From NCBI GenBank assembly GCA_008125075.1, contig VLTH01000002.1:9269-73268 (forward strand): DNA of 64,000 bases, written 5' to 3'. Every line of letters begins with the position of its first letter. Positions within the stretch are counted from its first letter, which is position 1. The DNA is from Acetivibrio alkalicellulosi (lineage in GTDB: Bacteria; Bacillota; Clostridia; Acetivibrionales; Acetivibrionaceae). Of the stretch, positions 23,187-64,000 are shown piece by piece. The notes beneath the pieces were generated by a model. That model was not told the origin of the DNA. It saw nothing but the letters and a program-made list of their open reading frames with translations, and made no database searches. The position numbers were made by a program, and so were the translations under genes.

Positions 23187-23237
23187 GTTATTCCCCCCCA
23201 TTTTATATTAACATAATTATACTGCAGATGTTTTATT

Positions 23238-24959: not shown

Positions 24960-26246
24960 TTACTCCTTTAGTTTTTTATAAAAGTATGTCTGCTCTCCTC
25001 TATCCCAATTATTATAGATTTCTTTTGATATCTCTGGTGGAAGAGGTAGTGATTTTAAATTATACTTTTCATAAAGTCTAAGTATTTCTTTTGAGTATTT
25101 TTCACATAGCCAGCATTCACCGGGCTCTAAAAAACACTCCCTCATTTTTTTATAAGTCTCTTCAAAACTTTCCTCTTCTATGTTTCCAAAGGACATATTT
25201 AAAAATTCACATGGCTGAACATCACCTTTTGCATTAATATAAATTCTGTCTGTTCCTCCTGCTGTACATCCAAATTGACTTTTGTCCTCCTCAATTACTT
25301 GAGCTGAAATTGATGGATATGCCTTATATTTTTTATCTAAATTATATTTATTAACCAGATTTTTCACATGTATAATATCCTCTTTAGAAAACTTATCTAC
25401 CCCTTCTTTAAGCGCTCCTCCTGAAGGTTTTGGTTTTATAACTTGTATAATTGAAGCACCAAAGTCCTTTGCTTTTTCCATAATTTTTTCAAAATCTCCA
25501 TTGTAAAAACCCTCTTTTGAAATACAGCAATTAAATGCTACTGACATATCAGCCTTATGGCAAAGTTCAATAGCTTTAGCCATTGTTTGCCAAGCATTTT
25601 CATTCCCCATAAAACTATTTAGCTCTTCACTGTCAGGAGTATGCATGGAAAACATAATGGCATTTACATTGAATTTTTTAAGTTCTTTAAGCCGCTCTAG
25701 TGTAATACCATATCCTGTAGAATTAACCCATGTTTCAGAACGTTCATCAATTGACTGGCACACCTTTTTTAATCTTTCATATGTTAAAAAAGGATCTCCA
25801 CCTTCTATATTAAAAAAAGCAACCCCCATATTTTGAAGTTTTTTGACAACTTCAATAAGTCTATTTATATCCACATCTTTTCCTCTGTCATTCTTTTGAT
25901 AACAGTACTTGCAATTGAATTTACAGGCAGACGTAACAGATATTAATGCCACAGTACAAGGAAGTTTATCCTCAAACTCTCTAACTTTTTTGCAGGAAGT
26001 AAAAAAAGCCTGTGATGGAAAACCTGGTATGTATAAATCCATCCGGGTATTCTCACCTATCTTTACAAACTTATTATCCTTTACCTTTGAAAGAAAATAT
26101 AAGAGCCTTTTAACAAACTTTATAAATCTTTTAAAACTCATATTGCCCTTTAATAGCTCAGGTAAAAAGTATATAAAAACTCTCAGTTTTACCCACTGAA
26201 TAAAAGCAATTTTTCTAATCCCAGAAATGTTTTTTACTTTAATCAT
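24960..26246 (-). CDS. Radical SAM / SPASM-domain protein, last gene of the lipid-like operon
   Basis: The CxxxCxxC cluster is C108-C112-C115 (ACKFNCKYCYQ), which binds the 4Fe-4S cluster that cleaves S-adenosylmethionine. A GGDPF motif (IEGGDPF) follows as expected. The C-terminal region carries a SPASM-like Cys set: FGCTAGG, DVQPCEF and GECWLCEKY. Residues 1-65 are basic and hydrophobic, which suggests membrane association. Homologues modify peptides or small molecules by radical chemistry. In this context a lipid or acyl substrate is likely, but that is inference. It lies 14 bases after the SDR stop codon and is co-transcribed with it. Confidence 0.9.
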   Translation of the reverse strand: MIKVKNISGIRKIAFIQWVKLRVFIYFLPELLKGNMSFKRFIKFVKRLLYFLSKVKDNKFVKIGENTRMDLYIPGFPSQAFFTSCKKVREFEDKLPCTVALISVTSACKFNCKYCYQKNDRGKDVDINRLIEVVKKLQNMGVAFFNIEGGDPFLTYERLKKVCQSIDERSETWVNSTGYGITLERLKELKKFNVNAIMFSMHTPDSEELNSFMGNENAWQTMAKAIELCHKADMSVAFNCCISKEGFYNGDFEKIMEKAKDFGASIIQVIKPKPSGGALKEGVDKFSKEDIIHVKNLVNKYNLDKKYKAYPSISAQVIEEDKSQFGCTAGGTDRIYINAKGDVQPCEFLNMSFGNIEEESFEETYKKMRECFLEPGECWLCEKYSKEILRLYEKYNLKSLPLPPEISKEIYNNWDRGEQTYFYKKLKE

Positions 26247-26260
26247 ATCATATTCACTTC

Positions 26261-27292
26261 CTAAATAAACTTATTATTTTTATACCAGTTGACTGTATTT
26301 TCTATACCTTCTTCTATACTGTATTGGTTCACAAAACCAAGTATTTTTTCTGCTTTTATAGTAGAATAATTAATACTATCATAGAGCATATTTACTCTCC
26401 CCCTTGTTAACAGTGGAGGTTTTTTGGCACGTATTAGTGTATAAAATAGTTCCATCAAAAACCCAAAGGGATATACTACACATTTTGGCAGTGTCCTTGG
26501 TTTTTTTATTTTAGCTTTATCACAAAAAACTTCGTATACTTCATCTAATAATTGAACTTTTTTATTTCCTATAATGAAGGAGTTTATTCCCTCAAGTTTC
26601 TTTTCATATGCAAGTAAATAAGCTCTTGCCAAGTCTTTTGCATATATAACATGAAATTTATTTTTTTTAGAGCCTGGAAATAGTGGCAGGCCTGTTGATG
26701 CTGTTTTTATATATTCATAAAACCCTGTATTAAATTCACTTTCCCCATACACCCATACTGGCTCCATTATTGTGACATTTTGATTGTTTTCTTTAGCAAA
26801 AGCAACTGCTTTTTCTTTTGCTAAGGCCTTTGAGTTCCTGTAATAATTCATAGCACTAGGAAAAATGCTATCTAAAAAGTATCTGTAGTGAGAATTGTGT
26901 GGTGAATTTTCATCTTTTACAATGTCTGAATTTTCTTCTCCATATACAGAAATAGAAGAAGTTATAATAATGTCTTTGATATTATTTTCTTTGCATGCCT
27001 TTAGCACATTTAAAGTTCCCTCTACATTTACATTATAAAACTTCTCATAAGCCCCCCAGTCTTTTGAGAGTGCAGCCACATGTATTACAAAATTATAGTT
27101 TTTTAAAATTTCCTTTAGGCTATAAATATCTTCAATGTCGCCATATTCTATTTTTACTGATAGACCTTTTATATTATGCAGGCTACTATCTTTTCTTACA
27201 AGGCATCCCGGTTTAATTCCCTTTTTGCAAAAGGCTTCAACAATATGGCTTCCTATAAAACCTGTTGCCCCTGTAATCAATACATTATCCAT
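26261..27292 (-). CDS. NAD(P)-dependent SDR / 3-beta-HSD-like epimerase-dehydratase
   Basis: The extended SDR fold has a GATGFIG dinucleotide site (residues 8-14) and a catalytic Y151-x3-K155 pair (YRNSK), with S/T residues in TSSISVYG supplying the third catalytic position. Family members oxidise or reduce hydroxyl/keto groups on sugars, steroids and acyl chains. Bacterial ketosphinganine reductases (CerR type) belong to this extended SDR group. Given the alpha-oxoamine synthase in the same operon, reduction of a keto-amine product is a reasonable but unproven role. The gene starts 15 bases after the ketosynthase stop. Confidence 0.9.
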   Translation of the reverse strand: MDNVLITGATGFIGSHIVEAFCKKGIKPGCLVRKDSSLHNIKGLSVKIEYGDIEDIYSLKEILKNYNFVIHVAALSKDWGAYEKFYNVNVEGTLNVLKACKENNIKDIIITSSISVYGEENSDIVKDENSPHNSHYRYFLDSIFPSAMNYYRNSKALAKEKAVAFAKENNQNVTIMEPVWVYGESEFNTGFYEYIKTASTGLPLFPGSKKNKFHVIYAKDLARAYLLAYEKKLEGINSFIIGNKKVQLLDEVYEVFCDKAKIKKPRTLPKCVVYPFGFLMELFYTLIRAKKPPLLTRGRVNMLYDSINYSTIKAEKILGFVNQYSIEEGIENTVNWYKNNKFI

Positions 27293-27307
27293 ATTATTTC
27301 CTCCAGC

Positions 27308-28579
27308 TTATTTAAAGCTTTCAAGTAACAGCGCTCCATTATGTCCTCCAAATCCGTATGATGAAGATACAGCCTTTTTAATTTTTCTTTTTACAGTTTG
27401 GTGTACAAGATTTAGTTCTTCTATAGGCTCTTCTATTTTGCAGCCGTGTACAACCTCTCTATCTATTGAAAGAGCTGTAACAGCTGCTTCTAAAGCTCCA
27501 CTTGCTCCTAAGCTATGTCCAATTACTCCCTTTGTTGCACCTATTAAAGGCTGATTTTCCACGTCTCCAAATACCTCTTTTATTATATTGGCCTCTATAA
27601 AGTCATTTTGCTCTGTACCCGTTCCGTGAGTATTGAAATAATCTATTCTTTCTCCTTTAGTAATATCCTTTAGAATCTTTGCAATTTCTCTTCCTGTCTC
27701 CTCCATTTGAACTATGTTATGTGCATCACTACTGGACTTATAATCACATATTTCAGCATAAATATGAGCTCCTCTTTTTAGAGCGCTATTAAGCTCCTCA
27801 AGTATTAAGACACACCCTGCTCCCTCATTAAATAAAAATCCACTTCGCTTTTTTGAAAAAGGCATGGGCACACCGTCCTCTGCTTTAGTCAATGTATTTA
27901 GCATATCAAACCCTCTCATTATTGATCCATGTTTTTCCTTCAAACACTCCACACCACCTGTTAAAACAGATTTAGAAATGCCATTTTTAATCCTCATATA
28001 TGCCTCACCTATTGCATAGGTTCCAGATGCACATGAAGCATTTACAGTAAAATTTGTACCTTTTATGTTATATAAAACTGATATCCAAGAAGATATGGAA
28101 TTTGGCATTGATATGGGAACTAACATACGATTATATCTAGTATCCAAATGGTACTTATCTAAAATACTTTTATCCTTTGCAAAAACATGTGCAATATTTG
28201 AACTGTATGCCGCTTGGATGCTGTTTAGGCCTAAACCTATTATTATATCAGCACATTCTAATTGATTTACATTAAAATATTTATCACTAGGTTGTACATC
28301 AAGACCTGCATCGTCTATAGCTAAACTAGCAGCTACTACAGCTATCTTTGCCGCATCTCCCATAGCTTTTTCTAAAGATGAAGGCAACCCATAATCTTTT
28401 AAATCTACCTTAGGTGCAGGTGTATAATAGAGTGATTTAAAGTTGTACATATCTTTATACTCTTTTGGTATTTCACAAATATTATGTTTTTGAGATAATA
28501 AATTGTTAAAAAACTCTTCTTTCCCTATTCCAATGCTTGTAACAGGACCTATTCCGGTTATAACCACTCTATTATTCAT
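27308..28579 (-). CDS. FabF-like beta-ketoacyl-ACP synthase
   Basis: This is a full-length KAS II-type condensing enzyme of 423 residues with nucleophile C183 (NASCASGTYA), H318 (THGTGTEQND), K350 (ATKGVIGHS) and H355: the complete Cys-His-His set for decarboxylative condensation. A GGVE motif and the C-terminal SYGFGGHNGALL glycine loop are present. It should extend an acyl chain on the ACP encoded upstream. Residues 100-155 are unusual compared with housekeeping FabF (NIAHVFAKDKSILDKYHLD), which suggests a dedicated chain or acceptor. Its start overlaps the ThiL-like gene by 8 bases, indicating translational coupling. Confidence 0.93.
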   Translation of the reverse strand: MNNRVVITGIGPVTSIGIGKEEFFNNLLSQKHNICEIPKEYKDMYNFKSLYYTPAPKVDLKDYGLPSSLEKAMGDAAKIAVVAASLAIDDAGLDVQPSDKYFNVNQLECADIIIGLGLNSIQAAYSSNIAHVFAKDKSILDKYHLDTRYNRMLVPISMPNSISSWISVLYNIKGTNFTVNASCASGTYAIGEAYMRIKNGISKSVLTGGVECLKEKHGSIMRGFDMLNTLTKAEDGVPMPFSKKRSGFLFNEGAGCVLILEELNSALKRGAHIYAEICDYKSSSDAHNIVQMEETGREIAKILKDITKGERIDYFNTHGTGTEQNDFIEANIIKEVFGDVENQPLIGATKGVIGHSLGASGALEAAVTALSIDREVVHGCKIEEPIEELNLVHQTVKRKIKKAVSSSYGFGGHNGALLLESFK

Positions 28580-29588
28580 ATCTTGAATTCTCCTTTAGAT
28601 AAACTATAAGGCTTTTAATGTACTCCCTCTTGTCATCAAAGCTCCTCCCACTAATATCAAGACCTTTTAAGTCTATTGTAATGTTATCTTCAACAAGTTC
28701 TTTTTTTTCCTGCTCACACATTGTCCCTATTTTATAAAACTTAAAGCCCTTCTCTTTTGCCTCTATTATGAATTCTTTTTCATCTGACTTTTTAACAGTA
28801 AACAAAAGCTCATACTCACCACATTCTCCTAAAAACATCAAGGCCTTTGGAACTGAAGCAAATTCTGATAAAGTTACTCCTATCTTCATATAGGGAAGGT
28901 TTTTTAATATAAATCCTGTTTTACTCATATTGCTAAGATTTTGTATACCATTGAACGGTCCGTCACTTGTATCTGTGCAGGATGTAGCATATTGATTTAT
29001 GAGTTGTGATTGCTCATTTCTTATTTTAAACAAGGTTTTTAATTTATTTGCAACATCTCTTATTCTAGAATTGCCTTGATAAAGTTTAAGTAAAGCTTCC
29101 ACATTACCAGCACCAATTTCACCAGTTATGTAAATTGCATCTCCTTCATTGGCACCACTTCTTTTAATAGGATTTCCTCTGTGTTCTCCCACAACTGTTC
29201 CAGTATATCGCCAAGTCTTTGATTTTCCCATATCCCCACCTAAAAAAGCTACCCCTGTCTTATTTAGTACATCTGAAATTCCTTTTGACAAATTCTCTAT
29301 GTATTTTTTATCCCAGTAATCACAAATAGTCATGCTGTGGAGATAAAAAAGAGGCTTTCCACCTGCTGCAAGGATGTCACTTATGCTTCCTACAGCCATA
29401 TTCCATCCAAGGGCATAGGCATCATGTTCATTAAAATAATCTTCGCTGGAAAACTCGTCAATATTAAATAAAAGTTTTCTGTCTCCTAAATCAACTATTT
29501 CACAGTCAGCTTCAAATAAGCTATTTTCCTGAGTCTTAAGTTTTGGCATTACACCTGCAACTATAGTTATCAATTCTTTTTCATTCAT
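28572..29588 (-). CDS. ThiL-like kinase (AIR synthase-related fold)
   Basis: The ATG at 29588 lies one base after the stop of the kinase gene before it; a longer frame upstream overlaps that gene and is not used. The protein shows ThiL-type features: a TTD-like metal site reading NIDEFSSEDYF, then GWNMAVGSISDILAAGGKPLF, a GDMGKS motif and an SGANEGDAIYITGEIG segment. True ThiL converts thiamine monophosphate to the diphosphate using ATP. Placement inside a lipid-type operon and the altered metal motif argue for a different phosphorylated substrate. That is inference; a stray thiamine gene is the alternative. Confidence 0.82.
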   Translation of the reverse strand: MNEKELITIVAGVMPKLKTQENSLFEADCEIVDLGDRKLLFNIDEFSSEDYFNEHDAYALGWNMAVGSISDILAAGGKPLFYLHSMTICDYWDKKYIENLSKGISDVLNKTGVAFLGGDMGKSKTWRYTGTVVGEHRGNPIKRSGANEGDAIYITGEIGAGNVEALLKLYQGNSRIRDVANKLKTLFKIRNEQSQLINQYATSCTDTSDGPFNGIQNLSNMSKTGFILKNLPYMKIGVTLSEFASVPKALMFLGECGEYELLFTVKKSDEKEFIIEAKEKGFKFYKIGTMCEQEKKELVEDNITIDLKGLDISGRSFDDKREYIKSLIVYLKENSRYE

Positions 29589-29589
29589 T

Positions 29590-30561
29590 TTAATCAACCT
29601 CACAAACAATATCCAATTGACCCTTAGCAATCTCAATGGCACAAGGTAAAAATCCTGCTGGATCACCATCAAACTCAACTTCTGGATTAACCTTGTTCCC
29701 ACAAATCTCAATTTTTTTTATGTAGTCAAGTGTCAAAACTCTATTATTAACAATCTCTTTTCCCCCATAAACCCTTTGTATCACAGACAAAACATCTTTT
29801 AAGCCCATATTTTTTAAGGTGAGTCTGTAAAAGAGTCCATCTCCTTGTTTAACGCTGTTTTTTACCTTTATCCCCGATGCTATATAGAAAGTTCTACCAA
29901 TTGATATGTTATGTACTCTTTTAATTTTTTCATGGTTTCCATCTGTAATAATTTGAAAATGGCAGGGTTTGTAACAAAGAAGTGTCTTAATTAGAGCTGT
30001 AAATGTACCTATATAATCTCCCAAAACACCTCTTATTCCGCTGTTTGCCCTTCTTGCTAATTGTGCTCCAAGTCCTATGTTGGCACAGCAGGCAAAATAA
30101 CAGGTTTTAAAATTTGAGCTATTGTCTATAAGCTTATCTTCATATTCCATTTTAAATTCTTTAGCCAACACTATTTTACCAATCTGAATTCTTTTGCTCT
30201 TATTATCTAAAATTACTTCTATAGCCTTTTCGGTCTTTATTGGAATGTTATAGCTTTTACAAAAATCAGGACTTGTGCCTGTATATATAACACCCATTTT
30301 TGCATTAGAAATCTTACTACCATCCTCATTATAAAAACCAGATAAAACCCTGTTTATGGTTCCATCTCCTCCAACTGCAACAATTACATCATAGCCTTCA
30401 ATGTTAGCTGATTTAGAAAGCAAAAATGCATCCTCTAACGAGTTGGTGATTTTGTATTCATAATTAATTGATGCTTTATTTAGTAAATCAAATATCTTCT
30501 TAAATGTTTTTTTGGAAGTTCCTCCTTTAGATCCTGGATTTAAAATAAAAAAGTACTTCAT
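29590..30561 (-). CDS. Diacylglycerol-kinase-fold lipid kinase
   Basis: The N-terminal DAGK catalytic domain has NPGSKGG and the nucleotide motif GGDGT (64-68, in VAVGGDGTINRVLSGF). The C-terminal beta-sandwich has FDGDPAG, as in DgkB/YegS and sphingosine/ceramide kinases. These enzymes phosphorylate the hydroxyl of diacylglycerol, ceramide or long-chain bases. The 323-residue length is usual. Its start overlaps the alpha-oxoamine synthase stop by 4 bases (ATGA-type coupling). Together with the oxoamine synthase and ACP, a long-chain-base-like substrate is a reasonable hypothesis. Specificity within the family cannot be read from sequence. Confidence 0.9.
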   Translation of the reverse strand: MKYFFILNPGSKGGTSKKTFKKIFDLLNKASINYEYKITNSLEDAFLLSKSANIEGYDVIVAVGGDGTINRVLSGFYNEDGSKISNAKMGVIYTGTSPDFCKSYNIPIKTEKAIEVILDNKSKRIQIGKIVLAKEFKMEYEDKLIDNSSNFKTCYFACCANIGLGAQLARRANSGIRGVLGDYIGTFTALIKTLLCYKPCHFQIITDGNHEKIKRVHNISIGRTFYIASGIKVKNSVKQGDGLFYRLTLKNMGLKDVLSVIQRVYGGKEIVNNRVLTLDYIKKIEICGNKVNPEVEFDGDPAGFLPCAIEIAKGQLDIVCEVD

Positions 30562-31736
30562 ATATCTCTTCCTATCTCATCTATCAAACTAGTGACTTTA
30601 TCAATTGATTTTTTAGATAGATTAGCCCCTGCAATAAGTCTAAGTCTCCCTTCATTTGGAGGAACAGAAGGCTCAACAAATGGAGTTGTAAGTATTCTTC
30701 TGTTATAAAAACTTTTTGCTAAAAGTACAGTTCTTAATGCATCTCCTGTTTTAATAGATATTATAGGCGCCATGCCATCACATAAATCAAACCCATTTAA
30801 AACAAGTCTATTTCTGATAATATCTCTGTAATCCCAAAGCTTTTTACCTAATATGTCAAATTCCTTTTCAATAATCTCTAAAACCTTTTCCACTGCTCCC
30901 AGTAAAGCTGGAGAAATTCCAGTAGAGTATACAAGTTGAGGACAAAAGTACCTCAAGTATTCAATGATTTCCTTGTTTCCAGAAATAATTCCTCCAGATA
31001 CCCCAATTGCCTTGCCTAAAGAAGCTGTGTAAATACCTTTGAAATCTTCTATTCCACTATCTTCTAAAATCCCTCTTCCACTTTTGCCTATAACACCTAT
31101 TCCATGAGAATCGTCTACTACAGTCACTGCTCCATATTTCATACCAAGTTCATAAATTTCTTTTAGTGGCGCAATACTTCCTTCTGTAGAAAAAACAGAT
31201 TCGGTAACTATAAATATTTGCCTATACTTTGATGAATTTTTAAGAATTTTCTCTAAATGATTTGTATTGTTGTGTAAAAAGGGTCTGATTTTGCATCCTA
31301 CGCATTTAATGCCTTCTATTAGAGAAGAATGGGCATAGTGATCTACTAAAATAAGATCTTCCTTTCTGGCAATGGCTGCAAACAAGCCATTATTGGCCTG
31401 ATAGCATGATGGTAAAATAACTGTGTCTTCAAGTGTTAAAAACTTGGAAATTTCTCTTTCAACTCTTCTATATAATTCTATGTACCCTGTGGCAACAGGT
31501 GTTCCACACATGGAAATCCCATACTTTTTCACTGCATTAATTGCAGCCTTTTTTACCCTTATATCTGCACCTAGACCTAAATAATTGTTTGCTGCAAGGT
31601 TTATATACTGCTTACCATCAACAATCACTGGATCCTCAAGCCCTGATTCAATACAGTTGTAATAGGGGTTAAACTCTGCCCTTTCTATAACCTGTTTGTC
31701 CACTTTAAGTCTATTTAAGAAACTATCTACACCCAT
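30558..31736 (-). CDS. Alpha-oxoamine synthase (BioF / KBL / serine palmitoyltransferase family)
   Basis: This PLP enzyme of fold type I has H136 (DHYAHSS), D208 and H211 (VDDSHGIG) and Schiff-base lysine K242 (TASLGKAIGVSGG). It condenses an amino acid with an acyl thioester, releasing CO2, to give an alpha-amino ketone. Family members make 8-amino-7-oxononanoate, 2-amino-3-ketobutyrate, ketosphinganine and CAI-1. The motif pattern does not decide among these. The adjacent dedicated ACP (2-bp gap) suggests acyl-ACP as donor, as in bacterial sphingolipid operons. No other biotin genes are nearby, so a bioF role is unlikely. Confidence 0.9.
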   Translation of the reverse strand: MGVDSFLNRLKVDKQVIERAEFNPYYNCIESGLEDPVIVDGKQYINLAANNYLGLGADIRVKKAAINAVKKYGISMCGTPVATGYIELYRRVEREISKFLTLEDTVILPSCYQANNGLFAAIARKEDLILVDHYAHSSLIEGIKCVGCKIRPFLHNNTNHLEKILKNSSKYRQIFIVTESVFSTEGSIAPLKEIYELGMKYGAVTVVDDSHGIGVIGKSGRGILEDSGIEDFKGIYTASLGKAIGVSGGIISGNKEIIEYLRYFCPQLVYSTGISPALLGAVEKVLEIIEKEFDILGKKLWDYRDIIRNRLVLNGFDLCDGMAPIISIKTGDALRTVLLAKSFYNRRILTTPFVEPSVPPNEGRLRLIAGANLSKKSIDKVTSLIDEIGRDI

Positions 31737-46532: not shown

Positions 46533-47363
46533 ATGAGTGAAGATGAGGTTTTTATATTATTCATATGCTTTGCTGTCAGCTTATTTGGATGGTTTAACTG
46601 GTACAGACGCCTGATATATTTTTGGCCATCATGTCTAGGCAAGAAAAATCGTATTTGGCTTGGCGTAATGCCTATAATTTGCATGTTCTCTATGTTTACT
46701 GTTTTAAGTTCTCAGGCCTCATATGATGTAGTTGATAGTACAGTATATATTTTCTTTTACATAATATTCGGGATGGCGTGGCTTATTCTAGGAAGACTTA
46801 TAATGACAACTTTATTTGATATTTCATGGCTTGACGATGCAATTGAAAGAAATAATAAATCAGCAGTTTTTGTTGTTTCAGGCAGCATAATTGGACTAAC
46901 TGCAGTGTATTCAGGCGCAAACATTGGAGATGGACCTGGATGGTGGTGTGTATTAATTGCAGGAGGCCTTGCAACAATTGTATGGTTTTTACTTTTTGGG
47001 CTATTACAAATAGTTTGCGACATATCTGAGAGAATTACAATAGAACGTAATACTGCTACTGGCATTAGAATAGCATTTTACATGGTATCTAGCGGAATAA
47101 TTTTAGGCAGGGGAGCTGCTGGAGATTGGACATCTACCATGGATACAATTATTGAGTTATTTGACGCATGGCCTGTTTTAATACTGTTTGGCGTAGCTAT
47201 TTTTGTTGAAAAGTGGTTTATGTGGCAAGAGAAAAACGGATATGAAAATGAGCATATTTACTCATCTTTATTTTGGGGCTTTACTTATTTATTATTAGCT
47301 ATTATTATTTTAGTTCTATCTCCACCTTTGCCCACAAACCCCATATACTCTTTCTTGCTATAA
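46533..47363 (+). CDS. DUF350-like integral membrane protein
   Basis: A GGGGTGA ribosome-binding site precedes the ATG. Six to seven membrane segments are visible. Two internal units, IERNNKSAVFVVSGSIIGLT and IERNTATGIRIAFYMVSSGI, show the charged-Asn-then-hydrophobic helix pattern of DUF350 (E. coli YjfL type), including the G-rich helix ends. The next gene encodes a glutathionylspermidine-synthase-like ATP-grasp ligase, a known genomic partner of DUF350 proteins, which supports the assignment. Its function is unknown. It is the first gene of a three-gene operon. Confidence 0.72.
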   Translation: MSEDEVFILFICFAVSLFGWFNWYRRLIYFWPSCLGKKNRIWLGVMPIICMFSMFTVLSSQASYDVVDSTVYIFFYIIFGMAWLILGRLIMTTLFDISWLDDAIERNNKSAVFVVSGSIIGLTAVYSGANIGDGPGWWCVLIAGGLATIVWFLLFGLLQIVCDISERITIERNTATGIRIAFYMVSSGIILGRGAAGDWTSTMDTIIELFDAWPVLILFGVAIFVEKWFMWQEKNGYENEHIYSSLFWGFTYLLLAIIILVLSPPLPTNPIYSFLL

Positions 47364-47440
47364 AAATTATAGATACAAAGAGCATTTTTATTACTTATTA
47401 ATAGAATTATAGATATAAAAATTTACAAGGTGATTTTAAT

Positions 47441-48655
47441 ATGAATGATATTTCAATTTTACCCATACCAGAATCAAAATATTCTAACTATCGGTATAAT
47501 GTAATTTTTAATAGTTATAAATGGGATCCTCAGGTTGGGGATACAAATACAGTAGCCGATGAGGTAGCAGTTATAATACCTGACGCAGCAAAAAAACTTG
47601 CTCAATGGGCTGAAGAATTATCTATGGAGGTTATGCTTTTAGAAAAAGCTTTGATAAATAAGCCTTCACTATATAAAAAATTAGGGTTACCATCAGCTAT
47701 TTACAAGTCACTAAAATTGGCTGCTAATTATAATGAGAAAGATCATGTAAGACTTATGAGGTTTGATTTCCATCCTACTAAAGATGGATGGGTAATTTCA
47801 GAAGTAAACAGTGATGTCCCAGGTGGATTATCAGAAGCATCATTACTGCCAAAATTGGCGTGCGAACTTTTCAAAGATGTTAATGTTTTTGGAAATGTTG
47901 GTGATAGTTTATACAATGCATTTGTGCCTTTACTAAATAGTAATGGTAGAATAGCCTTTATACATGCTACTTCCTATTCTGATGATCGGCAAGTAATGGA
48001 ATTTTTGAGTGATCATTTTAAAAAGTGTGGATTTGAAAGTTTGCTCATTGCACCTGATCATATTAGGTGGAATAAAGATGAAGCTTTTTGTATAGTAGAC
48101 GGACAAAAAGGTAAAGTTGACGGTTTGATAAGATTTTATCCTGGCGAGTGGTTATACCAACTTCCACGAAGCTCTGGATGGAAAGGATATTTTAGTACTT
48201 CAACACCTTCTTGCAATCATCCTATTGCTTTACTAGCTCAATCTAAGCGACTTCCATTAATATGGAATGAACTTGATGTTCCCTTAAAAACTTGGCATAA
48301 GCTTTTACCTGAAACAAAAGATATAAGACAGATTAACATTGAAGATGAGAAGTGGATTCTAAAACCCGCTCTTGGACGTGTAGGAGAGGATATAACTATA
48401 AGAGAAGTAATCACTAAAAATGATTGGACTAGAATTGCAAAAAGCGCAAAAATGTTCCCTAAAGAATGGGTTGCACAGCGTAGGTTTGAGAGTTTTCCAC
48501 TAAAATCGTCAAAGGGTGAAAGACACCTATGCATTGGTGTCTTTACTGTACAAGGAAAAGCGTCAGGGTTTTATGGTAGAATAAGCTCTTTTCCTAGGAT
48601 AGATCACAAAGCTCAGGACATAGCAGTTTTAGTTTCAAATAAGGAGGAAATATAA
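47441..48655 (+). CDS. Glutathionylspermidine-synthase-like ATP-grasp ligase
   Basis: The C-terminal ATP-grasp part shows MRFDFHPTKDGWVISEVNSD, WILKPALGRVGEDITI and WVAQRRFE, matching the synthetase domain of Gss/YgiC/YjfC. The N-terminal amidase domain of E. coli Gss is absent, as in YjfC-type proteins. Members join a carboxylate to an amine (peptide or polyamine) at the cost of ATP. The true substrates of this stand-alone group are unknown. It begins 77 bases after the DUF350-like gene and ends directly at the start of the next gene, so the operon is tight. Confidence 0.85.
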   Translation: MNDISILPIPESKYSNYRYNVIFNSYKWDPQVGDTNTVADEVAVIIPDAAKKLAQWAEELSMEVMLLEKALINKPSLYKKLGLPSAIYKSLKLAANYNEKDHVRLMRFDFHPTKDGWVISEVNSDVPGGLSEASLLPKLACELFKDVNVFGNVGDSLYNAFVPLLNSNGRIAFIHATSYSDDRQVMEFLSDHFKKCGFESLLIAPDHIRWNKDEAFCIVDGQKGKVDGLIRFYPGEWLYQLPRSSGWKGYFSTSTPSCNHPIALLAQSKRLPLIWNELDVPLKTWHKLLPETKDIRQINIEDEKWILKPALGRVGEDITIREVITKNDWTRIAKSAKMFPKEWVAQRRFESFPLKSSKGERHLCIGVFTVQGKASGFYGRISSFPRIDHKAQDIAVLVSNKEEI

Positions 48656-49423
48656 ATGGATAATCTTTTAGTTTATAAAACATGGGCTCCAGAGGAATCT
48701 CCCTGGTCTTTATGGGTTAAACCTGTACTCTTTGCTTTTATGACATTGCATGACTATACTTCAAATGACAAACCTTCACTTGAGCCCCTTAAATGGGCTA
48801 GTTCTTTAAATAAATCAACAGCAGTCATACTGGATTTACCAGGTGGGGATGGAATTTTACAAGGTCTTTCCTTTGCCGTTCATAATGGTTATAGACCTAT
48901 TCCATTATATAATTGCTGTAAAGGTCATAATATGATTATTGATGTATCATGTATAACAAGTCTTCTTAATGTTGGCGGAACTATAATATCTGAAAGCAAC
49001 TTAGCTTCTGATGCCCCACCAGTTTTTATTCTTGATTCTCGAAGACTAGAACATGGATATGATTCTAATGCGGGAAAATTTGATAATCGTTGGTGTATTG
49101 TTCCACAGGATATGCCTTCAGCAAATTTTCTTAAGAATGCCGGGATAGATACTATTATATTGCGTACAGATAAGGTAAATGGAGATCTTGCACATATATT
49201 GGTAAGATATCAAAAAAGCAATATCAACATTAAGATTTGCCGTAATGATGAATTGGTTCAGGATGTTAATCTAAAAGAGCCTTCTTCTTTCCGAAGCATA
49301 TTTTACAGATCTTCAGTTTTTTTTGGATTAAAACGAAATTCTGCTGGGGGCTTTGGTGCTATTGTACCCGAAATAAATCATTCATCAAATACTTATAGTA
49401 GTTCCCGCTCAAGAATGGGTTAA
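48656..49423 (+). CDS. Unrecognised partner protein of the ATP-grasp ligase
   Basis: The ATG directly abuts the ligase stop codon, with AAGGAGG inside the ligase 3' end, so translation is coupled. The 255 residues have no signal or membrane segment. A Rossmann-like alternation (STAVILDLPGGDGILQGLSFAV, PPVFILDSRRLEH, IDTIILRTD) suggests an alpha/beta enzyme or structural partner. The last 25 residues are Ser-rich. The strict association with the ligase gene suggests it helps select or present the substrate. I do not recognise a family. Confidence 0.65.
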   Translation: MDNLLVYKTWAPEESPWSLWVKPVLFAFMTLHDYTSNDKPSLEPLKWASSLNKSTAVILDLPGGDGILQGLSFAVHNGYRPIPLYNCCKGHNMIIDVSCITSLLNVGGTIISESNLASDAPPVFILDSRRLEHGYDSNAGKFDNRWCIVPQDMPSANFLKNAGIDTIILRTDKVNGDLAHILVRYQKSNINIKICRNDELVQDVNLKEPSSFRSIFYRSSVFFGLKRNSAGGFGAIVPEINHSSNTYSSSRSRMG

Positions 49424-49772
49424 TACTCAGCTGTGAAGTGCCATGGAAAGAGATTTATTAACAATACAAGGTCAATTATCCCTATTGCCAGATAGGGTGA
49501 GTAACTTTTTTAGAGTAAATACGGCATGTAGTAAAATAGTAGTTGAAGTTATATTTTATATTTTCAGAGTTCTTAAAGGTATGTCTACTGAATCCTCTGT
49601 TCTAAATACTTGCAGCTTACCGCACTTATGATTATGTATTAGACATTGATGAGCAGTAAACTCGTTTAGCTAACGCTAAACATCCGGGCTTTAGGTGGAG
49701 ACTCTACTCCACCTAAATATTATAAGAGGCCTATAATATAGATCAGATATTGAGAAATATCTGTGTAATTTC
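49424..49772. other. Intergenic region with a hairpin
   Basis: No convincing gene is present; a 62-codon frame at 49443 has no ribosome-binding site. At 49690-49717 TTTAGGTGGAG and CTCCACCTAAA form a perfect hairpin that may end the ATP-grasp operon. The unit before it (GCTAAACATCC...) resembles 6130-6160 and 16068-16105. Confidence 0.5.
49690..49717. terminator. Hairpin, probable terminator
   Basis: An 11-bp perfect stem with a 6-base loop lies between convergent genes. There is no long U-tract on either side, so termination efficiency is uncertain; it may instead be part of a repeat family. Confidence 0.5.
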
Positions 49773-52629: not shown

Positions 52630-53856
52630 CTACGGATTGTATAATTTACCCATAAATATTACTGTATCTGTTGTATCATCAGCAATTAAAAATACAAATG
52701 GCCTGTTTGCAATAAACTTTAATGGTTCCATCACTGCTAATTCTTTCATAACAACTACAGTTACCCCTGCTGCTTCACTTCCTTCCTCGTTTACTTCGAT
52801 AATGGCTTTATGAAACACCTCATCTATATAAATATCTCTACTTCCACGCATTTTGGAAAAATCAGCTTGATCATAAAAAGGTTCTTCCATTCCCATTGAA
52901 ATTAATACATCTTTTAAGCTCTTTATACCATATTCTATGTTAAATCTAGGAATATTCACTAAAACATCTTTGGTATTGGAAACACTTTCGCGTATCTCTT
53001 CCCATTTACTTTCATTCAAATTATTAATAAACTGGTTGATTGAAATATCCTCTGAAGGAAGGATACAGTACATTGATGTTTTACCATTACCATAGGGTAA
53101 TCTTAGTACCTTAAAGTCATCTCTTATACCATATTCAAACTCACCTTTTGTTCTCATCATCATAACCTCTGTTTCGTTGCCATTACCTGTGTAAAACCTT
53201 GATTTAAATGTCTCGTTTTTGTCAAATTTATGAGTCCACTCCCCCTTAAAATAAATAGCATTAATCAGATACATTATTACACTTGGATCAATTGGAGGTT
53301 GTATCATTTCTCTTATTTTATTATTTGTAGATTTAGAAATCCAATTATTTATAGTATCTGCCGCATCTTCTCTAAAAAAGTCCACTTCATAAACAGGTGC
53401 ATTAAAGATACCCTTATTTACATTTTTAAATTCCTCCAGTATGCTTTCACCTTTTCTTAGCCAAATAGAGTTGTTGATATTAAGCTCTATTTTTTTATCA
53501 ATCTGATTCATGTATAACAATAGGTTTTTATAGCTTTCGTTAATTGTTTCTATGTCCATTCTGTCATATTTAAGAGCCTTCATCATTTCATCTAGTGTAT
53601 TTGAATTAGCTCCTTGCATAGTCATAGTAAGTGCTGTTGATATACTAAGAGGAGAAATGAAAACATTTTTATCACTATCCTCTTCATTAAGCTTTGCAAA
53701 AATATCAAAGGCAAATTGTGAATTACTACTTATAACTTCTTCTGAAATTTTTTCTTTATCAAAATTTGAACCACTTGTAATGTCTAAACCTCCACAACTT
53801 GTAAGAAGGACATTTAGAACTAAAACGCTTATTATAATATATATACATTTTTTCAC
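52630..53856 (-). CDS. Lipoprotein serpin (serine protease inhibitor)
   Basis: A signal sequence ends in LLTSC (C21), so the inhibitor is lipid-anchored outside the cell. The remaining 385 residues are a complete serpin: NVFISPLSISTALTM, NAIYFKGEW, DEVFHKAIIEVNEEGSEAAG and the C-terminal NRPFVFLIADD. The hinge EEGSEAAGVT has small residues as inhibitory serpins require. Counting from it puts P1-P1' at about Leu-Ala (KELAVMEP), which would favour chymotrypsin- or subtilisin-like targets; this is inference. Cellulosomal serpins of clostridia carry dockerins; this one does not. It may protect surface proteins from proteolysis. It is divergent from the SLH protein gene. Confidence 0.95.
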   Translation of the reverse strand: MKKCIYIIISVLVLNVLLTSCGGLDITSGSNFDKEKISEEVISSNSQFAFDIFAKLNEEDSDKNVFISPLSISTALTMTMQGANSNTLDEMMKALKYDRMDIETINESYKNLLLYMNQIDKKIELNINNSIWLRKGESILEEFKNVNKGIFNAPVYEVDFFREDAADTINNWISKSTNNKIREMIQPPIDPSVIMYLINAIYFKGEWTHKFDKNETFKSRFYTGNGNETEVMMMRTKGEFEYGIRDDFKVLRLPYGNGKTSMYCILPSEDISINQFINNLNESKWEEIRESVSNTKDVLVNIPRFNIEYGIKSLKDVLISMGMEEPFYDQADFSKMRGSRDIYIDEVFHKAIIEVNEEGSEAAGVTVVVMKELAVMEPLKFIANRPFVFLIADDTTDTVIFMGKLYNP

Positions 53857-54145: not shown

Positions 54146-56866
54146 ATGGTAACTAAGAAGTTTTTATGTTTTTTTGTTGTCGTATTATTATTTATTCAGG
54201 CATTTCCTAGCTTCCTTCCATCTAACTCAGAAGTATTTGCTTCAGAGGGAATTAATTCAGGAAGTATCTACAAGATAATAGCTAAACATAGTGGAAAATG
54301 CCTAGACAGAGGAAATTCAGGAACCTCTAACGGAACATCTGTTCAACAGAATACAGATAATAATACAATCACTCAACAGTGGATGATTGAATCTGTTGAC
54401 GATAATTACTATAAAATCATAGCAATGGGAAGTGAAAAAGTATTAGATGTATCAGCAGGTTCAAATGAAAACGGTGCAAGAGTATTGACATGGGATTATA
54501 ATAATACCGACAATCAAAAATGGCAAATTGAACCTGTACAAGGTGATTTCTTTGTAATAACTGCTAAGCATAGCGGCAAATGCCTTAGCGTTAATGACGC
54601 TTCACATGAAAACGGAGCATCTATAGTTCAATCAGTTTATGAAAATGCAGACAGTCAGAAATGGACACTTCAATTAGTATCAACACCTACACCTGCTCCT
54701 ACTACACCTGCTCCTACTACAACTCCTATACCTTCTCTAACTCCTACACCAACACCAGTATCTAATGTTACTGGCATTATTGTAGATGTTTCTAGTTTAT
54801 CTTTGCAGTTAAATCAAACTCATACCCTTAGTGTTACTGCATTATTAAGTAATAACCAGACTCAGACGGTTACTAGAAATTCAAGATATGTTTCTTCAAA
54901 TACAAGAGTAGCTAGTGTTAGTGACAGAGGAGTGATTACAGGCCTACGAACAGGAAGTTCTCAAATTACAGTTACATATGATAATAAAACAGCCTATGTT
55001 ATTGTAAATGTAGTTGAAAGCACATCCGGAGTACCAACAAATTTTCAAGTAAGTTCCACAACTTCTTCTTCAATAGAGCTTCGTTGGGGTTCTGTAGCTA
55101 ATGCTACTGGCTATGATATAGAAATTGACGGAACTGTTGTTGATGGAGGCAACAGAACTACATATACCCATAGTCGTTTAAGGCCTGATACTCAATATAC
55201 ATACAGAGTCAGAGCAAGATTTGGAACCACAAGGGGAAATTGGAGCAATTCTATCAGACACTATACTCTTGTTGATGCGCCATCTAATATAAACACTAGC
55301 TCAACTACCAATCAAATAACTATAAATTGGAATTTCAAGTCAGGTATAATAAGATATGATATAGAGTTTAATGGAAGAGTTATAAACAATGGAACTTCAA
55401 CAACCTACAACCACTCTAATCTTTCTCCAAACTCTTCAAACAGATTTAGAATACGAGCAGTAACTTCAAGAGGCAACGGAGAATGGAGTAGTCTTACTAC
55501 AGTATACACACTCCTTGAAAAACCCACTAATTTCAAAGAATCTACATCCAATAATTCTGTTCAACTTTCATGGGATGCTGTAAGAGGTGCAACAAAGTAT
55601 GAAGTTGAAATAGATAATAATTCTACTTTCTCTGTTTCTGACACTAAGTTTACCCATAATGTATCTAACAATTCTAAGCATACATACAGGGTAAGGGCAT
55701 TAAACAATAATACACATGGAGAATGGAGTAATTATATTAATAGCAACAACTATCAACATCAAATAATTAGAACAATAGATCGTATACCATCAGCAAATTT
55801 ATTAAACTACAATGTAGATAAAGATGAGAAGAATAATTATGAAATCTCCTTTATGAAAAATGCTCTTGATACTATTAATAGAAACTCTTCTGACATAATA
55901 ATAGACACAGAAATAATGAAAATGAAACTAACTCTTGATATGTTGTTAAGAAACATTCCAGACGAACTAACAATAAGCATACATCCGACAGAAGAGACAA
56001 TTAGAAATACTAACATACAAAATGACGTTATACAGATTGGAAAAGTGTTTGAAGTAAAATTTATATCTAAAGATGGAAACCGACAAAACACATTAAAGGA
56101 TATAAATACACCAATAAGTATTGAAATTAACTTAAGTAATGCCCTGCTTTCTAATGTAGATAATACAAAAAAACTCGGAGTGTATTATTATGACGATACG
56201 TCCAATGCTTGGATTTACAGTGGAGGAAAATATAATAGAAACACAAGAAGTATTGAATTCAAGGCTCCATATATTACAAAATTTGTAGTTACCAATTATA
56301 TTAAGTCCTTTGCAGATGTGCCACATAATCACTGGGCTAGGGAATCTATTGAAATTCTCGCAGCAAAAAACATTGCAAAAGGTATTGATTCTACAAGATT
56401 TAGCCCTAAAGATAAAGTCACAAGAGCTCAATTTGCAGTTTTTCTTGTAAATGCACTGGATATTGATATTTCTTCATACCAGGGTACATTTGATGATTGT
56501 CCCAGAAACGCATGGTATACACCTGCTGTTGAAGCTGCTGCACGAAGGGGAATATTAAGTGGTATAGGAGGAGGTAAATTTGCACCAGATGCCTATGTTA
56601 CTAGAGAACAAATGGCAGTACTTCTAGTAAACGCATATGAGTACATGACAGCAAAAAGTACTTCCTCTGATGTCAGAAATTCATTTGTTAGCTTTAATGA
56701 CTACAATAGCATAAGCTCCTGGGCTCAGGACTCAGTAATAATATGCTACTCAAAAGGACTTATCAGAGGAATGCCAAATGGAGATTATGATCCTAAAGGA
56801 AACGCTCTTAGGGAACAAGTTGCAAGCGTTTTAGTACAACTACTTGAGCTTACAGACAAGATATAA
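54146..56866 (+). CDS. S-layer-anchored surface protein: ricin-type lectin, Big2, three FN3, three SLH domains
   Basis: TAGGAGGAG precedes the ATG. A signal peptide (residues 1-33) is followed by a ricin-type beta-trefoil (about 38-178) with three QxW-type repeats (QQWMIE, QKWQIE, QKWTLQ) that should bind carbohydrate. Then come a Pro/Thr linker (APTTPAPTTTPIPS), a Big2 domain (about 207-292), three fibronectin type III domains (about 295-545), an unassigned region (550-715) and three SLH repeats (723-905; FADVPHNHWARESIEILAAK first) that bind pyruvylated wall polymer. The protein is an adhesin or carbohydrate-binding surface protein. A strong terminator is 180 bases downstream. Confidence 0.93.
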   Translation: MVTKKFLCFFVVVLLFIQAFPSFLPSNSEVFASEGINSGSIYKIIAKHSGKCLDRGNSGTSNGTSVQQNTDNNTITQQWMIESVDDNYYKIIAMGSEKVLDVSAGSNENGARVLTWDYNNTDNQKWQIEPVQGDFFVITAKHSGKCLSVNDASHENGASIVQSVYENADSQKWTLQLVSTPTPAPTTPAPTTTPIPSLTPTPTPVSNVTGIIVDVSSLSLQLNQTHTLSVTALLSNNQTQTVTRNSRYVSSNTRVASVSDRGVITGLRTGSSQITVTYDNKTAYVIVNVVESTSGVPTNFQVSSTTSSSIELRWGSVANATGYDIEIDGTVVDGGNRTTYTHSRLRPDTQYTYRVRARFGTTRGNWSNSIRHYTLVDAPSNINTSSTTNQITINWNFKSGIIRYDIEFNGRVINNGTSTTYNHSNLSPNSSNRFRIRAVTSRGNGEWSSLTTVYTLLEKPTNFKESTSNNSVQLSWDAVRGATKYEVEIDNNSTFSVSDTKFTHNVSNNSKHTYRVRALNNNTHGEWSNYINSNNYQHQIIRTIDRIPSANLLNYNVDKDEKNNYEISFMKNALDTINRNSSDIIIDTEIMKMKLTLDMLLRNIPDELTISIHPTEETIRNTNIQNDVIQIGKVFEVKFISKDGNRQNTLKDINTPISIEINLSNALLSNVDNTKKLGVYYYDDTSNAWIYSGGKYNRNTRSIEFKAPYITKFVVTNYIKSFADVPHNHWARESIEILAAKNIAKGIDSTRFSPKDKVTRAQFAVFLVNALDIDISSYQGTFDDCPRNAWYTPAVEAAARRGILSGIGGGKFAPDAYVTREQMAVLLVNAYEYMTAKSTSSDVRNSFVSFNDYNSISSWAQDSVIICYSKGLIRGMPNGDYDPKGNALREQVASVLVQLLELTDKI

Positions 56867-58635: not shown

Positions 58636-61041
58636 CTAAGTTGACTTTTTCCATACTTTTGCCACCAATACAGTCATATCGTCTAGAGGCTTTTTATTAC
58701 AATTAGCAAGCGCTTTACTTACAATAAAGTCAGCTATTCCCTGTGGATTGATACTTTCTATATCGTCAATATAGCTAATTAAAGCCTGTTCTCCTCCTTC
58801 CTCCTTTTCAAATGAATCTATTATTCCATCAGAAACCATTATAATAAAATCTCCATTATCTACGTTTTTACAAACAAGCTCAGTTTCAATATTGCTTAGT
58901 ATTCCAGCAGGTAATGAAATATGCCTTACAACTTCAGTCTTTTGAGGTTTCTTAATAAATGTTGGAACTGCTCCTATTTTTACAAACTCAACATTACCTT
59001 TATATAAGTCAATAACTGATAAATCAATTGTTGCAAAAGAATCTTCGTCAGACTTAAGTACAAGTATTGAATTAATAAGTTTTATTGCAGTATCTTTGTC
59101 AAATCCTGTCTCCATGAACTGTTCTAACAAACTAATCGCCGCATTGCTATGATTTGCAGCTTTTTGTCCTGTGCCCATTCCATCACTTAAAGCTAAAACA
59201 TATTTTCCCTCACCAGTGTTCATAAAAGTATAATTATCTCCACTAATCTGACCCTCATTTTTTGAAATCCTTGATACTCCAGTAGTAACATTAAAAACCT
59301 CTTCTTCAACCAACTTTAAATTACACAATTTTGATTTGTGCTCAAAATTGCATTCACTTTTGTCTTTAATCATCTTTTTTCCCAATACTTGCGAAGCCCT
59401 TTTTTCAATTATATCTACACACTTGTTACTTCCACCACATCCTTTATGAAAAATACTAACCTGATATTTACCCCATTTATTTTCATATACTACAGCATCT
59501 TTAACTTTTACACCTGCTTTATCTAAATCAATTAATAGTGCATTTTCTAAATCACTATTAAATTTAATATCGGTGCCAATCTCTAAAGCAAGATTTGATA
59601 TAACCTTTGACATACCATCAAGTTGTTGAGATACAAGTCCTCGGCTTTCCCCTATTCTGTTCTTCCATACCATATCTACTTTAAACAACTCATATATATT
59701 GTTAATCTGCTTTATAAACTCAACTGTATGCTCACATTTCCCAATAAAATATGGCGGTATATCTGTTTCATCAATCCATCCTTTTTTTTCTAGAGCCTCA
59801 ACTATTTTAAACATTACCTGATAGGTATTATAAAAATTTCTATCCCAGCAATGCATACACAAGCTACAGTTTTTACAGACCTTTTGCGCAACTCTATCAA
59901 ATAAAGATGATATGTCCTGCTTATCTGTAACCATTCTTGCTTCTGATATTTCATTAAAGGATTTTGATATTTCTCCAAATGCTCGTGCAAAGCTGTTAAG
60001 TTTCTCTATAGTTAATTCCTTTATTCTGTCAATATAACTTATCTTATCATCAATACGTTTGGCATTTTTTTCTAAGAATCCAAATGAATCATCAATAAAT
60101 CTTTTAGGAATAATCATAAAAATTGTAGCACCTATTAATATGTCTTTAATATGTATAAGAACTTCAGTAGAACCATTTATATAAAGAGTAAGCAATGCAT
60201 TTCCTGCTACAAAACCAATGCCTGCTCCTATTTTCCCAAGATTTTTAAATACACCTGTTAAAAGTCCACAAAATGCGTAAGATCCTATTATAACAGGTGT
60301 TGTTGCAGGATTAGACATGTTAATTACAAGTCCTACTATTACCCCTACAGCAGCACCAACTCCAGGCCCGGCTTTGTAACTAAACAGCAATATGGCCAAA
60401 ATCCCTAAAATATTGGTCAGCGTAAAACCAGCTAAACTTATATCACTGACACCCGACAGTGCTATTGCTGCCAGCACCGCCATGCTTATAATTTCTTCAT
60501 TAGATAATATTTGTCTCTTATTTGTGCTTTCTAATATTAAGGTACTATTTCTAAATATAAATACCAATGAAAAAACAAGTCCTGAATAAAATATAGCCAT
60601 TAGAAAATCATAAACTAGAAAACCCTGCAAATACACTAGACCTATTTGTGGAATCATTGCACTTACAAGAGCTATAGTGGCTAGTTTGTAATCTTCTTTT
60701 GTTTTAATATTCTTAAGTAGACTACTAAAGGTGCAAAATAAAACAATAAATACAATGGCGGTAAAAATCTCATTAATTGCTCCACCTGTCAGCATTCCAA
60801 ATAATACTGCCAAACCCATCAACACTTTGCTAGGAGCTTTTGTACAAGCTGCTGCAAAAAAGGCAACTCCAAAAGGCATAGAGCCTTGAAATAAGGAAAC
60901 CCTTCCTAATAAGAAGCTTGCAAGCAATAATAAAACATTGTTTTTCGAGACCATTAAATATGAAAGCATGCCTTCTTTACCTTTTGCACACATTCTTCCA
61001 ATATTAATTGCCTTCTCATAAGTAATAATTTGTGACTTCAT
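58636..61041 (-). CDS. spoIIE: Stage II sporulation protein E, SpoIIE phosphatase
   Basis: This is the full-length SpoIIE (801 residues): about ten membrane segments in residues 30-320, a central regulatory region with a Cys-rich patch (CKNCSLCMHCWDR), and a C-terminal PP2C phosphatase (about 590-800) with ALSDGMGTGQKAANHS and FIIMVSDGIIDSF holding the metal-binding Asp residues. It dephosphorylates SpoIIAA to activate sigma-F in the forespore. Upstream, a TATAAT and a TGTCAAA resembling a 0A box (61089-61105 region) fit the known Spo0A-controlled promoter, by eye only. Its presence shows the host sporulates or descends from a sporulator. Confidence 0.97.
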   Translation of the reverse strand: MKSQIITYEKAINIGRMCAKGKEGMLSYLMVSKNNVLLLLASFLLGRVSLFQGSMPFGVAFFAAACTKAPSKVLMGLAVLFGMLTGGAINEIFTAIVFIVLFCTFSSLLKNIKTKEDYKLATIALVSAMIPQIGLVYLQGFLVYDFLMAIFYSGLVFSLVFIFRNSTLILESTNKRQILSNEEIISMAVLAAIALSGVSDISLAGFTLTNILGILAILLFSYKAGPGVGAAVGVIVGLVINMSNPATTPVIIGSYAFCGLLTGVFKNLGKIGAGIGFVAGNALLTLYINGSTEVLIHIKDILIGATIFMIIPKRFIDDSFGFLEKNAKRIDDKISYIDRIKELTIEKLNSFARAFGEISKSFNEISEARMVTDKQDISSLFDRVAQKVCKNCSLCMHCWDRNFYNTYQVMFKIVEALEKKGWIDETDIPPYFIGKCEHTVEFIKQINNIYELFKVDMVWKNRIGESRGLVSQQLDGMSKVISNLALEIGTDIKFNSDLENALLIDLDKAGVKVKDAVVYENKWGKYQVSIFHKGCGGSNKCVDIIEKRASQVLGKKMIKDKSECNFEHKSKLCNLKLVEEEVFNVTTGVSRISKNEGQISGDNYTFMNTGEGKYVLALSDGMGTGQKAANHSNAAISLLEQFMETGFDKDTAIKLINSILVLKSDEDSFATIDLSVIDLYKGNVEFVKIGAVPTFIKKPQKTEVVRHISLPAGILSNIETELVCKNVDNGDFIIMVSDGIIDSFEKEEGGEQALISYIDDIESINPQGIADFIVSKALANCNKKPLDDMTVLVAKVWKKST

Positions 61042-63921: not shown

Positions 63922-64000
63922 ATGACTAAATATACTGAAGAAACTGGCATAAATATAAAAGACACTCTTGACTACACTAAAAGACTTGATACTTTAGCTG
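63922..64000 (+). CDS. Start of an unidentified gene, cut by the window edge
   Basis: GAGGTG at 63903 and an ATG at 63922 open a frame that runs off the end, beginning MTKYTEETGINIKDTLDYTK. The spacing is long (about 13 bases), so the start is not certain. Too little is visible to assign a function. Confidence 0.45.
   Translation, partial: MTKYTEETGINIKDTLDYTKRLDTLA

Follow-up and report, generated by a model that had tools for sequence, protein, structure and literature searches.

The 64,000-nucleotide stretch of the Acetivibrio alkalicellulosi genome analyzed here (contig VLTH01000002.1, positions 9,269–73,268; hereafter the window) carries a three-gene operon at 46533–49423 that encodes a DUF350 membrane protein, a stand-alone ATP-grasp ligase and a third protein from a new, ligase-linked family. 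We propose, with a probability of roughly 60%, that the operon is a protein-modifying system in which the ligase would amidate the C-terminal glycine of the third protein, most likely with a polyamine. The third protein ends in a glycine-rich tail that also terminates otherwise unrelated proteins encoded beside ligases of the same class in other bacteria, and this recurrence, together with the tight genomic linkage, suggests that the tail is the substrate of the ligase.

Operon architecture and ligase identity

The trio is real and lies at these coordinates: all three open reading frames (ORFs) are intact and on the plus strand, and the start codon of the third gene directly follows the ligase stop codon (Table 1). 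An initial annotation, made from the sequence alone, had called the first product a DUF350-like membrane protein and the second a glutathionylspermidine-synthase-like ATP-grasp ligase, and both calls hold, with Pfam matches to PF03994 (E = 6.1e-13, 49.4 bits vs. a cut-off of 26) and to PF03738 (GSP_synth; E = 7.9e-27, 94.8 bits vs. a cut-off of 29.3), respectively. The DUF350 protein is of double length and shows nine partly overlapping hydrophobic segments by the Kyte-Doolittle scale, approximately seven of them distinct. The pairing of such a membrane protein with such a ligase does recur in bacteria, as had been claimed; conservation of the whole trio extends to six of seven class relatives of the same type, in which phmmer places a DUF350 gene immediately upstream of the ligase and third genes, and not to the seventh, locus L006. 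A terminator scan reported no credible terminator downstream of the operon, nor did it report a perfect 11-bp hairpin without a T run (TTTAGGTGGAG-ACTCTA-CTCCACCTAAA) that lies at 49690–49717, approximately 270 bases past the third gene.

The ligase belongs to the YgiC/YjfC class, for which peptide–spermidine ligation is a class-level prediction. A PDB search with a profile of 13 ligases of this class, YgiC itself among them, retrieved YgiC (7uk8, E = 5e-117), YjfC (7uk6, E = 1e-71) and GspSA (E = 6e-38). Residues R107, D109, E121, N123, K269, K308, R313, Q346 and R380, which we take to be the Mg/ATP catalytic residues of the C–N ligase, are intact and show no difference among the 14 ligases that were aligned, E. 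coli YgiC and GspSA among them. GspSA uses ATP to activate the glycine carboxylate of glutathione, which is then transferred to an amine. The window ligase has no fused amidase domain, since the synthetase part alone is matched, and it differs at the positions aligned with GspSA S335, S337, T441, T446 and W571, presumably the glutathione contacts. Because these positions differ, its product is probably not glutathionylspermidine, as the initial annotation had expected; we rejected that product on the missing amidase domain and the differing pocket residues together.

Table 1 Features of the operon in the window and a nearby polyamine gene
Feature	Position	Strand	Basis
DUF350 (YjfL-type) membrane protein, 276 aa	46533..47363	+	PF03994 over two stretches
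ATP-grasp amide ligase of the YgiC/YjfC class, 404 aa, stand-alone (no amidase domain)	47441..48655	+	PF03738
AAGGAGG, likely ribosome-binding site for the third gene, within the end of the ligase gene	48641..48647	+	Sequence inspection
Third protein and proposed ligase substrate, 255 aa including a fused C-terminal tail, family undescribed	48656..49423	+	Family alignments
C-terminal tail, residues 231–255, GGFG at start and glycine last; last glycine is the proposed modification site	49346..49420	+	Alignment
Spermidine synthase gene; a second match lies elsewhere in the genome	G000:C2:73852-74388, approximately 0.6 kb past window position 64000		PF01564, E = 3e-59

A new protein family linked to the ligase

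The third protein had been left as unrecognized, and profile searches bear this out, with no match to any Pfam or NCBIfam family up to E = 1. Of 291 genomes sampled from the class, 15 contain the family and 21 contain PF03738, with both present in 14 of the 15; in those 14 the third gene and the ligase gene lie side by side, in G081 with one small gene between them. Weakly PF03738-like ligases of approximately 440 residues, mostly beside a protein of approximately 410–460 residues, are also recurrent in the phylum (L076–L080, L082–L086). Locus L004 comes from G682, a Pontiellaceae metagenome-assembled genome; in the phylum of G682, sampled with 194 genomes, the family occurs in five and is adjoined by PF03738 in four. 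In all, the ligase is adjacent or one gene away in 18 of the 20 genomes with the third family, and both ligase-less copies are broken, in G028 by three stops within the match and in G1085, where no ligase match was found within the 11 kb fetched, by a split over two frames; for both, errors in metagenome-assembled genomes are possible. Tblastn searches with the third protein were negative in the phage and plasmid collections at E = 1e-3, and viral contigs gave no match.

Three groups can be distinguished in the family. Group A comprises proteins of approximately 250 residues with a C-terminal extension, namely those of the window, L002/L005, L006, L021–L025 (the third gene of L025 runs off its contig), L004 and L133, and the more divergent L134 and L135. 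Group B (L026–L030) has approximately 220 residues and no extension, and no DUF350 protein was found at these loci by phmmer, by a home-made profile or by Pfam searches of seven flanking genes. In this group the operon is followed by a convergent gene whose product has approximately 700 residues (DUF2207 in L026), and in four of the five loci the C-terminus of that product is glycine-rich (...GGGGGGGGH). Group C (L031, L064, L065, L070, L081) is short and divergent, and its members accompany a double-length ligase of 822–878 residues, with two PF03738 matches in a single frame at L064 and L070, and a separate small tailed neighbor.

The N-terminal domain contains eight residues that are invariant in nine group A members (D60, R80, D127, R130, D143, N144, D152 and D177). 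The window protein lacks a lipobox and any hydrophobic segment close to the N-terminus; a borderline internal hydrophobic stretch (93–111) is absent from the other eight members. Residues 212–227, before the tail, are basic and partly hydrophobic on inspection, and we would guess that they could touch the membrane. AlphaFold2, run on a two-row alignment of the window and L004 proteins, gave a mean pLDDT (predicted local distance difference test) of 43, too low for the model to serve in a fold search. When the PDB was searched with a profile from an 18-member family alignment, all matches were weak, the best being a SAVED-domain protein (E = 0.042, not used). A Pfam scan of the 18 members found DUF3137 in three (best E = 4.5e-4) and nothing in the window protein, and NCBIfam gave one weak family in two members.

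Recurrence of the tail beside ligases

The group A extension approximates to RN..GGFG..IPEP..SS..G, with the GGFG motif and the last glycine invariant in nine aligned members; the divergent L134 and L135 proteins end in GGFGMLIPEPSSSGG and GGFGQLIPEPSSSAG. Within the family the tail is fused in group A and located on the separate neighbor in group C (5/5). We defined a tail criterion by at least 30% glycine plus serine in the last 30 residues, a [GS][FYIW][GS] motif within the last 45 and glycine or serine as the last residue, a definition that was shaped on loci already examined and itself demands the final glycine or serine. By this definition the third protein is the sole tailed product among 52 gene calls in the window. 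In E. coli, YgiB and YjfM, DUF1190 proteins each encoded beside a YgiC/YjfC ligase, end in tails of the RGGFG...GG or RGGYG...GG type (YjfM: SRGGYGRSSSARGHWGG), and the criterion selects 1 of 16 genes at the yjfM locus, 1 of 11 at ygiB and 0 of 11 at gss, whose ligase acts on glutathione.

A discovery set of 33 further PF03738 loci consisted of 23 strong and 10 weak ones, with eight weak PF03738 genomes outside it (G077, G289, G353, G372, G421, G495, G629 and G667). A tailed neighbor on the same strand accompanies 21 of the 23 strong loci (for example, ...SSKSGFGG, ...SKSSGFGSFFRSSGG and ...KSGFGRAGVRSSGHGS), the exceptions being L072 and L075, which contains a cut third-family gene; at the weak relatives none was found (0/10 loci). 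A fresh sample was then set beforehand along with the criterion, comprising one locus from each unseen Bacilli genus (40) and eight loci from the phylum of G682, and a tailed neighbor on the same strand within 1.5 kb was counted as a hit. Such neighbors occur in 38 of the 48 loci (31/40 and 7/8) vs. 0 of 347 other genes there. The hits at L131 and L132 look spurious, and 36/48 remain without them (Fisher p of approximately 4e-41, with loci that are related by descent). In 31 of the 38 hits the tailed gene lies 33–104 bases upstream of the PF03738 match. At six misses (L097, L107, L108, L113, L122, L123) valine or leucine replaces the aromatic residue or isoleucine ([GS][VL]G variants), and L134 counted as a miss by the overlap rule in spite of the end given above. 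With valine and leucine allowed, 37 of the 40 Bacilli loci have a tailed neighbor (not L091, L112 and L115) and the background remains at 0/284, although the ORF given for L122 in this recount differs and is doubtful.

Plasmids showed the same association. A YgiC relative is present in 147 plasmid records, and 12 loci were chosen among the 60 of these that were listed. Nine of the 12 have a tailed neighbor (in Rhizobium, Sulfitobacter and Pseudomonas, where it is annotated as DUF1190, and in Arthrobacter, two Deinococcus, Acinetobacter, Indioceanicola and Methylobacterium) vs. 2 of 42 background genes. The Tsukamurella neighbor ends in RGGLG...GSSGS and falls outside the criterion, and no tailed neighbor was found at the Photobacterium and Azospirillum loci. 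Overall, tailed neighbors are spread across Bacillota, Pseudomonadota, Actinomycetota and Deinococcota. Our home-made DUF350 profile detected its target in at least 18/23 strong discovery loci, 29/40 Bacilli loci, 3/8 loci of the G682 phylum and 5/12 plasmid loci, and in 0/10 weak loci; these counts are lower bounds because the profile was built on short YjfL-type proteins and missed the long type of the window (1/7 group A loci).

The proteins that carry the tail (hereafter carriers) were compared in sets of 61 and 64 picked by the relaxed criterion, and their ends are therefore partly fixed by that choice. Among the 61, the motif ends 6–13 residues from the C-terminus in 51, one residue from it in seven and farther away in three, and 38 end in GG vs. 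4 of 804 background genes. When the 64 carriers were combined with the nine plasmid carriers, YgiB and YjfM, third-family profiles matched 2 of these 75 (L133 and L135, E below 1e-20), and the other 73 gave E above 1; the tail is therefore common to the carriers and the domain is not. A lipobox-like pattern is present in 38/64 carriers and a clear hydrophobic N-terminal segment in 22/59. A lipobox-like pattern also marks 38 background genes. The single tailed gene among these encodes the L081 carrier, which fell into the background through a wrong ligase interval.

Candidate amine

The amine joined is probably a polyamine, either spermidine or homospermidine, although we hold this less firmly than the assignment of the tail as substrate. 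E. coli YgiC and YjfC are annotated as peptide–spermidine ligases. A homospermidine-synthase-like gene adjoins the third gene in four of the five group B loci (not L028), and that of L030 matches solved homospermidine synthases (E = 2e-37). We looked for relatives of this L030-type synthase in 51 genomes, made up of the 15 strong ones among the 21 with PF03738 and 36 comparison genomes hand-picked from those listed, and they occur in four, all within the 15 with ligase (0/36 others; Fisher p = 0.005). Those four genomes have no spermidine synthase match at E = 1e-20. The host genome itself has two strong spermidine synthase matches, and a polyamine is therefore possible as the amine.

Proposed mechanism and alternative explanations

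In the proposed reaction the ligase would activate, with ATP, the alpha-carboxylate at the last tail glycine of the third protein, and the activated carboxylate would be joined to an amine, most likely spermidine or homospermidine. The ligase would recognize its substrate by the tail, an element that is portable between proteins. Elsewhere among bacteria, ligases of this class would act on a separate, often lipoprotein-like tailed carrier, whereas the window operon has the tail fused to a protein that looks cytosolic; as the latter has no hydrophobic N-terminal segment, carrier and ligase could meet in the cytosol. The initial annotation suggested that the third protein could supply or bind the substrate; the protein is probably no supplier or binder of a small substrate, since recurrence of the GGFG...G tail on unrelated partners points to the protein as probably being the substrate itself. 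The interpretation in the initial annotation is partly supported overall, and its observation of the trio is confirmed.

Several observations weigh against amidation of the tail. ATP and ligase should be cytosolic and many carriers look exported, so that modification would have to precede export, which is a difficulty for this model. Some carriers end in serine, and the last glycine is therefore not required. All five group B loci have a ligase and a third protein with the tail neither fused nor on a neighbor, and in group A the L023 and L024 tails have too little glycine and serine for the tail criterion. Finally, a spermidine or homospermidine synthase is found in 11 of the 15 ligase genomes vs. 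20 of the 36 others, which is not a clear enrichment.

The retention of domain and ligase without a tail in group B would agree with a ligase that makes a small amide, such as an acyl- or peptidyl-polyamine, from an acid that the third protein binds or makes, the tail then being a flexible docking linker to the ligase, DUF350 or the membrane. The invariant residues D60 to D177 fit an enzyme or a binding site, and the substrate of E. coli GspSA is likewise a tripeptide. However, recurrence belongs to the tail and not to the domain, as 73 of the 75 carriers lack a third-family match, and the narrow distance between motif and C-terminus would be expected of a carboxylate substrate; we regard synthesis of a small amide as possible but rather unlikely. 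The GG ends of 38/61 carriers, the adjacency of carrier genes to the ligase and the membrane-stress setting of ligase-DUF350-lipoprotein operons in the available part of Ravi et al. (PMC11237479) would also suit a ligase that joins the tail to a macromolecular amine, i.e., the lysine of a protein or the head group of a lipid, with the carrier as a ubiquitin- or Atg8-like modifier. This is hard to reconcile with the annotation of YgiC and YjfC as peptide–spermidine ligases and with a homospermidine synthase within four loci, and appears quite improbable to us. It is scarcely credible, lastly, that the tails are chance Gly/Ser-rich disordered ends of small surface proteins unrelated to the ligase. 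Other membrane proteins do have glycine-rich ends, e.g., the approximately 700-residue proteins near four of the five group B loci, but tails are absent from all 347 other genes in the fresh loci and from all 10 loci of weak PF03738 relatives, and the one tailed gene among 38 lipobox-like background genes is the L081 carrier. Two further candidates were set aside: a graspetide-type precursor, given the 255 residues of the third protein and a ligase of another family, and a defense island, which was considered with no PADLOC search made.

Amidation of the tail could in its widest form be a widespread bacterial post-translational modification, in which YgiC/YjfC ligases would couple an amine to the portable GGFG...G(G) C-terminus of their carriers, the clostridial tail being fused to a cytosolic domain, and in which, in the boldest version, the amine would belong to a protein or lipid in ubiquitin- or Atg8-like fashion. 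We consider this extension distinctly unlikely. The literature examined names no natural substrates of E. coli YgiC and YjfC; the tail predicts that the acceptor would be the glycine at the C-terminus of YgiB, of YjfM and of their counterparts. If this prediction is right, amidation of dedicated proteins at the C-terminus by an ATP-grasp ligase would be a common bacterial modification found in four phyla or more, and it would give context to the neighbors of these ligases, namely DUF350, ion channels and PspA.

Other features of the window

Consecutive minus-strand genes for products of 320–430 residues each fill 24960–31736 and could form a cluster that modifies peptides or sugars; the one at the end of the run, at 24960–26246, encodes a radical SAM/SPASM protein. 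The products encoded at 417–2399, 20787–23201, 52630–53856 and 54146–56866 are dockerin proteins, of which one has leucine-rich repeats, together with a serpin and an S-layer/ricin-lectin protein. With SpoIIE at 58636–61041, they suggest a cellulosome-type, spore-forming clostridium.

Comparison with known systems

The E. coli YgiB-YgiC and YjfL-YjfM-YjfC systems resemble the window operon in ligase class and in the adjacent protein with an RGGFG...GG or RGGYG...GG tail, and the yjf operon also has the DUF350 partner. They differ in their carriers, YgiB and YjfM being DUF1190 proteins, whereas the cytosolic-looking window carrier is of another family, with neither a DUF1190 match nor a lipoprotein signal, and unlike these systems the window operon has no PspA, DUF2170 or DUF2491 gene directly within it. 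E. coli GspSA (EC 6.3.1.8) has the ligase family and the nine catalytic residues in common with the window ligase, and differs from it in the amidase domain and in the five aligned positions named above.

Operons linked to phage shock proteins that combine DUF350, a glutathionylspermidine-synthase-like ligase and a lipoprotein, and that are tied to polyamine metabolism, are described in the available part of Ravi et al. 2024 (PMC11237479), which also places a potassium channel in ligase-DUF350 operons. Among our loci, ion channel or ion transporter genes lie near the ligase operons in L055 (RCK type), L141 and L146. The window shares DUF350 and ligase with the published operons; a common C-terminal tail and the third family go unmentioned in the part of that article available, and a word search of its main text found none of "glycine", "GFG" and "conjugat". 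Within open-licence literature, titles and abstract openings yielded no prior mention of the tail or the third family. A parallel for the proposed chemistry comes from eukaryotes, where, according to the available part of PMC12270671, the C-terminal glycine of SUMO or ubiquitin is joined to spermidine with ATP; the acceptor glycine corresponds to that proposed here, whereas the enzymes are E1/E2 and not ATP-grasp ligases, and we claim no homology. As the grouping of DUF350 with the ligase has already been described, these two components are ordinary, and what is new here is the third family with its fused tail, along with the recurrence of that tail across phyla.

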